58,017 nt of DNA from the NCBI GenBank assembly GCA_012839815.1, contig DUMQ01000060.1:1-58017 (forward strand), written 5' to 3'. The position numbers were made by a program, and so were the translations under genes. The notes under the pieces are model-generated. The model saw only the letters and a list, made by a program, of their open reading frames with translations. It was not told the origin of the DNA and did not search any database. The DNA comes from Bacillota bacterium (GTDB lineage Bacteria > Bacillota > SHA-98 > Ch115 > JABLXJ01). Positions 1 through 58,017 of this stretch are shown piece after piece; the first letter of the stretch is position 1; every line of letters begins with the position of its first letter.

Positions 1-156
1 CCCAGGACTTACGGTGTTGCGTTCCGGGGACGGCGCGCTTGCGGCGCGCCTCCGTTGAAATTTGGCGCGAGGGCCTTGCCAAATTTCAAAAGGCCCCGTC
101 ACGCAAGCACCGTAAGTCCTGGAAAAAGGGCGATAATCTTCGAACTTACACTTAGC
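1..156 (-). repeat. Branched palindromic repeat, copy 1 (cut by window start)
   Basis: The arms at 2-21 and 102-122 are inverted repeats of about 21 bp; the left arm lacks one base. Inside are two smaller hairpins: an inner stem built from GAAATTTGGC and GCCAAATTTC, and a GC-rich arm around GGCGCGC/GCGCGCC. The predicted fold is an outer stem carrying two side hairpins. Bases 123-156 are a flank ending in GAACTTACACTTAGC, which matches (reverse complement) the outer end of copy 2 near 27491. The copy is in the opposite orientation to the one at 27.5 kb. No transposase is seen, so it resembles a miniature non-autonomous element; mobility is inferred. Confidence 0.85.
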
Positions 157-189
157 CGCCTCCGCCTGGCGGAGAGATACGGGATACCC

Positions 190-258
190 CGGCCACTGTG
201 CGGCACTGGTAGCTGTCACCTGCGAAAGGTCCGGGTATTTTTGCGCACCAACTTAGTA
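190..258 (+). repeat. Dispersed ~70 bp repeat, copy a
   Basis: This stretch matches 30636-30702 with only a few differences. Shared blocks include GCGGCACTGGTAGCTGT, TGCGAAAGGTCCGGGTAT and a GCGCAC-AACTT tail. No reading frame or promoter is evident. It sits 33 bp from branched repeat copy 1. A shorter relative of the tail occurs at 38402. Its function is unknown. Confidence 0.75.
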
Positions 259-27490: not shown

Positions 27491-27690
27491 CTAAGTGTAG
27501 GTTCGAAGATTACTGACGTTTTTCCAGGACTTACGGTGCTTGCGTGACGGGGCCTTTTGAAATTTGGCAGGGCCCTCGCGCCAAATTTCAACGGAGGCGC
27601 GCCGCAAGCGCGCCGTCCCCGGAACGCAAGCACCGTAAGTCCTGGGACGTGCTGGTAAACTGGCACAAATCAAGGAACCTATACTTAGGC
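27491..27690 (+). repeat. Branched palindromic repeat, copy 2 (complete)
   Basis: The only complete copy. The core 27524-27645 has perfect 21-bp inverted arms (CCAGGACTTACGGTGCTTGCG at 27524-27544 minus the last base written, and its complement at 27625-27645). The core contains a hairpin of GAAATTTGGC/GCCAAATTTC around AGGGCCCT and a GGCGCGC/GCGCGCC hairpin. Flanks extend to similar ends: CTAAGTGTAGGTTC on the left and, in reverse complement, CCTAAGTATAGGTTCC on the right. The whole is about 200 bp with terminal inverted repeats. No coding capacity; short open frames across it are by-products. Confidence 0.88.
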
Positions 27691-30600: not shown

Positions 30601-30635
30601 GTGAGGCTAAACCTCCAACCGGCTATTTACCCGTT

Positions 30636-30702
30636 CGGCCACTTTGCGGCACTGGTAGCTGTTACTGCGAAAGGTCCGGGTATCCTTGCGCACTAACTTG
30701 GT
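30636..30702 (+). repeat. Dispersed ~70 bp repeat, copy b
   Basis: Near-identical to 190-258, in the same orientation. It lies 36 bp outside the murJ start codon on the opposite side from the gene body, between murJ and the nadE promoter. The final TGCGCACTAACTTGG recurs alone at 38402-38416. Origin and function unknown. Confidence 0.75.
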
Positions 30703-47748: not shown

Positions 47749-47788
47749 AAAAAGCCTTTCGCCCCGTGTAAACTAGGGACGAAAGGCA
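47749..47788 (-). terminator. T-box-controlled terminator
   Basis: GCCTTTCGTCCC and GGGGCGAAAGGC form a long stem followed by TTTTTA on the minus strand, right after the T-box antiterminator. Confidence 0.92.
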
Positions 47789-48063
47789 AATATCCCCGCG
47801 GTACCACCCTATTTGGTCGCAAACCCTGTAAGCTGCAACCCACTCAAACGGCACGGAACATGCACCCGCATTCCCATGCCTGTTCCCGGTAACGGAGGAC
47901 AACCGGCCCGGCCTACTCTCCAGGAGGATTTCGACCTGCGACTCGAAGGTGATTTTCGACACCCCTAAAGTGCCCGGCTCACACCATCCCCGGCTCGCTT
48001 GACCATCGGCGATGTCTACTCTTCCCTCTCATCGTCTTTCCAAAAGCTTATGCCGTCTATACT
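47749..48063 (-). promoter_or_regulatory. Isoleucine T-box leader of ileS
   Basis: The conserved T-box AGGGTGGTACCGCGG occurs at 47810-47796 on the minus strand. Stem I upstream contains the specifier loop around GAAAATCACCTTCGAG, with AUC (47953-47951), an isoleucine codon. The antiterminator is followed by an intrinsic terminator just before the ileS leader end. Uncharged tRNA-Ile should stabilise the antiterminator and permit transcription. Confidence 0.95.
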
Positions 48064-57699: not shown

Positions 57700-57900
57700 C
57701 CCGCAACCGCAGTGGGGGTGCATGTAAGAATTGTGGTCTACAGGCTACTTACATCCATCGATTATAGCCCTATGGCCTGCCATAGTCCTATGACCTGTCT
57801 GATGGTGACGTTCCTGCAAGCCAACCAGCCAGCCTGCCTCTCAGCCTTCCTGCCCGGATCGCAGCCTCAGGGCGGTAAGACTCTTGCCACTCCATGCGCA

Positions 57901-58017
57901 TGAGTGTAGGTTCCTTAATTTGTGCCTGTTTACCAGCACGTCCCATGGGTTGCCGGTGCTTGCGTGACGGGGCCTTTTGAAATTTGGCAGGGCCCTCGCG
58001 CCAAATTTCAACGGAGG
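57901..58017 (+). repeat. Branched palindromic repeat, copy 3 (cut by window end)
   Basis: The left flank GAGTGTAGGTTCCTTAATTT, then GTGCCTGTTTACCAGCACGT, matches (reverse complement) the right flank of copy 2. The adjoining core is, however, in copy 2's forward orientation (GTGCTTGCGTGACGGGGCC, then the GAAATTTGGC hairpin). The core is thus inverted relative to its flanks. The outer half of the stem has diverged. The element runs off the window. Confidence 0.85.

Follow-up and report, generated by a model that had tools for sequence, protein, structure and literature searches.

A family of MITEs with a conserved branched core in an uncultured class of Bacillota

The 198-bp palindrome at positions 27491-27688 of the window (the whole stretch of DNA analysed here, 58,017 nucleotides long) is a complete copy of a MITE family, here called family A, whose branched interior is unusually well conserved. 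We put at roughly 83% the probability that the family is mobilised in trans and duplicates the TA of CTAG-like sites, as Tc1/mariner/IS630 elements do. Its copies have precise ends and a duplicated TA, are numerous, stand at sites that are empty elsewhere, are dispersed in two species, are nested within another repeat, and share a covarying core. These properties bear out the original prediction, made from the letters of the window, that the palindromes could be miniature mobile elements. We found no description of family A in the open-access literature, and it appears to be a large, undescribed MITE family of an uncultured Bacillota class.

Architecture and copies of the element

The element, read directly from the sequence, contains no gene. 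Terminal inverted repeats bound it, followed inwards by outer arms and then by a core with a three-way junction, in which a 29-bp stem carries two side hairpins (Table 1). Being short, non-coding and bounded by inverted repeats of 14 bp, its 198 bp have the structure of a MITE. The matching outer ends that had been predicted proved to be these 14-bp repeats, CTAAGTGTAGGTTC...GAACCTATACTTAG. The two side hairpins said to lie within an outer stem are also present, but the stem, which is the longest inverted repeat of the middle copy and encloses them both, measures 29 bp at 93% complementarity and not 21 bp. Folded as RNA of the + strand, the element reaches -120.4 kcal/mol (z = -13.2), a value that none of 200 shuffles equalled.

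Table 1. Coordinates of family A, its parts and associated repeats in the window
Feature	Position	Strand	Basis
Complete family-A element with target bases, C-TA [AGTGTAGG...CTATACT] TA-G	27491..27688	+	sequence; empty site in sister species G001:C1
Left terminal inverted repeat, CTAAGTGTAGGTTC, 14 bp	27491..27504	+	sequence, end matches
Right terminal inverted repeat, 14 bp; CTAAGTATAGGTTC on - strand, GAACCTATACTTAG as the element's closing end	27675..27688	-	sequence, end matches
Duplicated TA, left copy (target CTAG-like)	27492..27493	.	empty-site comparison
Duplicated TA, right copy	27686..27687	.	empty-site comparison
Core stem P1, left arm, with tandem G.A internal loop (GTGAC / GGAAC)	27524..27552	+	fold, repeat analysis
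Core stem P1, right arm	27617..27645	+	fold, repeat analysis
Class-wide shared core (query positions 44-145)	27534..27635	+	class comparison; alignment A1 and covariation
Side hairpin P2, TGAAATTTGGC...GCCAAATTTCA; limits approximate	27557..27591	+	fold, covariation
Side hairpin P3, GGCGCGC-CGCAA-GCGCGCC; limits approximate	27595..27615	+	fold, covariation
Family-A copy, reverse orientation, cut off by contig start	1..155	-	sequence, genome search
Family-A copy, cut off by contig end; core inverted with respect to the outer arm	57900..58017	+	sequence
Family-B half-element, end CTAAGTTGGTGCGCAAAAAT, host of the nested copy at 1-155	156..256	.	sequence comparison
Family-B fragment, truncated, with terminal repeat	30632..30701	-	sequence comparison

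The window is the entire contig C43 of a source genome (G000) of 2.80 Mb in 163 contigs. All three predicted copies are real, with slightly shifted limits (155 for 156, 27688 for 27690 and 57900 for 57901). Those at the two contig ends are truncated, which is probably explained by assembly breaks inside repeats, and family A would account for contig breaks in this assembly. The prediction had proposed looking for more than ten copies in the genome and its relatives. A search of the source genome gave 171 candidate places, 40 of which were scored, and the 14-bp end, with up to two mismatches allowed, matched 189 times as against 10 for a reversed control pattern. The sister genome of the same genus (G001), the only other genome searched from this taxonomic family, has 46 candidate places. 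Copy number is thus high and dispersed, as expected of MITEs and, with copies abundant throughout the genome and in the sister species, the core is not confined to its three places in the window. An exact-pattern scan with the genus-1 core found no match in a set of named genomes that may omit the source genome and those near it.

Copies appear to exchange sequence. Orthologous copies at one site (L006 in G000, L063 in G001) differ in concert in the two arms of the stem, in surroundings of about 400 bp that are nearly identical. Mixed arms or a flipped core are seen in some other copies. Such stem swaps and core inversions are explained if the numerous copies recombine or undergo gene conversion with one another. 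One further insertion common to both species (L093 in G001:C10, L160 in G000:C50) has lost its core by a different deletion in each.

Many family-A copies of the source genome are nested in family B, a second MITE whose ends, CTAAGTTRGTGCGCAAAAAT, are related to those of family A and which in many copies holds family A in its central CTAG. The resulting composite of 382-392 bp is found at several unrelated sites, and positions 1-256 of the window are part of one. Other repeats were seen in passing. Locus L007 (1026-1166, G000:C27) is a third short element of about 141 bp with ends CTAAGTTAGTGCGCAAGAGACTGTTG, and L118, L224 and L243-L248, in G014 and its relatives, are MITEs of about 140 bp whose ends are CTAAGTAGATCGCCATAAGTAATCG and whose hairpin interior differs. 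The flank GGTAAGACTCTTGCCACTCCATGC, shared by L022, L023 and window positions 57860-57899, adjoins several family-A copies and suggests a further repeat. The window also contains a T-box leader (47772-48041, - strand) that scores above the Rfam gathering score.

Target site and mobilising enzyme

Both ends read CTA...TAG in 27 of 34 complete copies from the window element's genus and in 43 of 62 copies from another; no longer direct repeat consistently flanked the copies of either set. Empty sites were sought by searching for the joined flanks of copies in the other of the two species. The site of the window's complete copy is unoccupied in the sister species (L133, G001:C1), where it reads ...CATG-CTAAG-CTCAAG.... 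An insertion in the sister species (L067) has an uninterrupted counterpart in the source genome (L158), and the flanks, joined via one CTAG, align without a gap. The pair L064/L159 agrees with a CTAG-like target and a doubled TA, and L059/L162 agrees likewise, but with five extra bases (AGCTA). Within the source genome, the CTAG of family B is intact in L088, and family A sits there in L014, L028 and L051. Once unclean cases (L061, L057, L003, L017 and L013) are left out, there are four cross-species empty sites and one paralogous one. Empty alleles have one CTAG-like site, in some instances with source-genome bases that have drifted from CTAG, and occupied alleles have the TA doubled.

Target-site duplications and empty sites, which the original prediction had proposed as checks, are what one expects of MITEs, and duplication of TA is what one expects of an element derived from the IS630/Tc1-mariner group. 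The simplest reading of these alleles is insertion at CTAG-like sites with TA duplication, as in that group; the transposase of ISY100, of the IS630 family, inserts almost only at TA and duplicates it (PMC2170065). In the mechanism we propose, a transposase acting in trans would bind the terminal repeats, excise the element and insert it at the TA of a CTAG-like site, duplicating the TA. The branched core may aid mobility, for example by folding as a single strand or cruciform that brings the two ends together.

An autonomous carrier would be expected to have ends of the form AGTGTAGG or AGTATGGCGCC. A scan of 10 proteins encoded in the window showed no transposase, as had been noted from the sequence. 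Transposases of the IS630 type (PF13358, DDE_3) occur in 6 of 17 class genomes (G001-G003 and G011-G013), on elements none of which has ends matching family A, and the domain has no match in G000, G014 or G016. Those of IS4/IS5-like type (PF01609) occur in most class genomes, including the source genome; among those examined, none has matching ends. The stretches between pairs of terminal repeats that we read in G013, G014 and G011 contained only MITEs and unrelated open reading frames. These three routes did not yield a related autonomous element, which is common for MITEs but not strictly required, nor the transposase with matching ends that had been suggested. From the target site we infer a mobiliser of the IS630/Tc1-mariner type, whose matching element may have been lost from these genomes or missed.

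Movement by another DDE transposase, of the IS4/IS5-like type, is unlikely. The wide distribution of PF01609 in the class, source genome included, speaks for it, but the mismatched ends and a TA duplication typical of IS630 speak against it. The hairpin shape, high copy number and dispersal would also suit REP-type elements moved by a Y1 (RAYT) transposase, the partner that had been suggested by name. The copy-rich genomes G000, G001, G013, G014 and G016 gave no match to Y1_Tnp (PF01797), a search that a divergent Y1 enzyme could escape, and terminal repeats with a duplicated TA do not fit REPs, so we consider this explanation very improbable. We give practically no credence to replication hairpins or viral-type hairpin termini, to which the original prediction had likened the fold. 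The likeness ends at a T-shaped outline, we found nothing to indicate a viral or replicative function, and the copies are insertions dispersed over many unrelated sites with empty alleles; those at the window's ends probably reflect assembly breaks at repeats and not replicon ends.

A core conserved across the class

Matches to the element occur in 14 of the 17 class genomes; beyond the genus they are mostly confined to positions 44-145, at about 75-85% identity. Relatives that bear a name are MAGs of uncultured Bacillota, among them Yes71-24, MAG-64 and UBA4981. A consensus search of 399 Bacillota genomes with the core alone (about 100 bp) matched 13 genomes, all of this class, and none of the approximately 380 outside it. 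Complete elements of genus g5 are mostly 211-213 bp long and likewise have the ends CTAAGT...ACTTAG, which other MITEs of that genus share around different interiors. Across genera the interior is better conserved than the arms or the ends. Most MITEs show the opposite, so this counts against the reading that we favour, and it makes the family suited to asking if mobility of non-autonomous elements is aided by a folded interior.

We aligned 53 diverse cores and scored their three-helix structure. Pairing was retained in 91.5% of cells, and 17 of 38 pairs had changes on both sides. Double-changed cells numbered 86 against 27.7 in shuffles, a test inflated by kinship among the copies, and pairing fell to about 33-42% when partners were slid out of register. 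A conserved fold with compensatory changes is a property expected of structured RNA. Because the shuffle tests are inflated and template switching can homogenise the arms of a palindrome, covariation alone is no proof of function.

It is tempting to speculate that the core is a class-specific three-way-junction module with tandem G.A pairs, its fold under selection and common to several MITE families that carry or use it, with a function of its own as a structured RNA, a reading that the original prediction had also listed, or as folded single-stranded DNA that promotes transposition. We hold this as a tentative minority view. In its favour, compensatory changes keep the fold, and one strand retains a tandem G.A/A.G loop (in most copies with a readable loop), as the core mostly does a one-base bulge, where adjacent pairs have changed, which is not what simple palindrome repair would favour, since such repair would erase both. 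A GCAA/GCGA-like loop points the same way, as do low-copy g4 genomes, in which several copies have differing outer stems that are still largely complementary. Against it, Rfam has no credible match to the element, there is no clear orientation bias toward neighbouring genes (15 sense and 10 antisense, by crude ORF calls), and copies of the core usually lie within elements with CTAAGT-type ends. Template switching or gene conversion could also change both palindrome arms together.

Relation to known repeats

The trans-mobilised MITE that we favour resembles ISY100 and the IS630 family (Tc1/mariner) in its TA target, duplicated on insertion (PMC2170065). Those are autonomous insertion sequences with a transposase, and the likeness is one of target duplication and not of ends compared base by base. 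Closer in kind is RUP of Streptococcus pneumoniae, a MITE of 107 bp and about 100 copies, with TA at its ends and target, thought to be moved by IS630-Spn1 (PMC2229807). Both are small and geneless, with terminal inverted repeats and TA at the ends and in the target; RUP has a related insertion sequence in its genome, whereas family A, at 198 bp, has a branched conserved core, a preference for CTAG and no matching insertion sequence found. The CIR repeats of Caulobacter and Brucella contain a conserved two-arm structure (PMC2229807), but lack clear terminal inverted repeats or a known duplication, and family A is set apart from them by that description and not by sequence. The Correia/NEMIS elements of Neisseria are MITEs of 100-200 bp that have terminal inverted repeats, end in TA and fold stably as transcripts (PMC2229807). 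They are described as stem-loops formed by end-to-end pairing, whereas family A has a three-way core common to its class.
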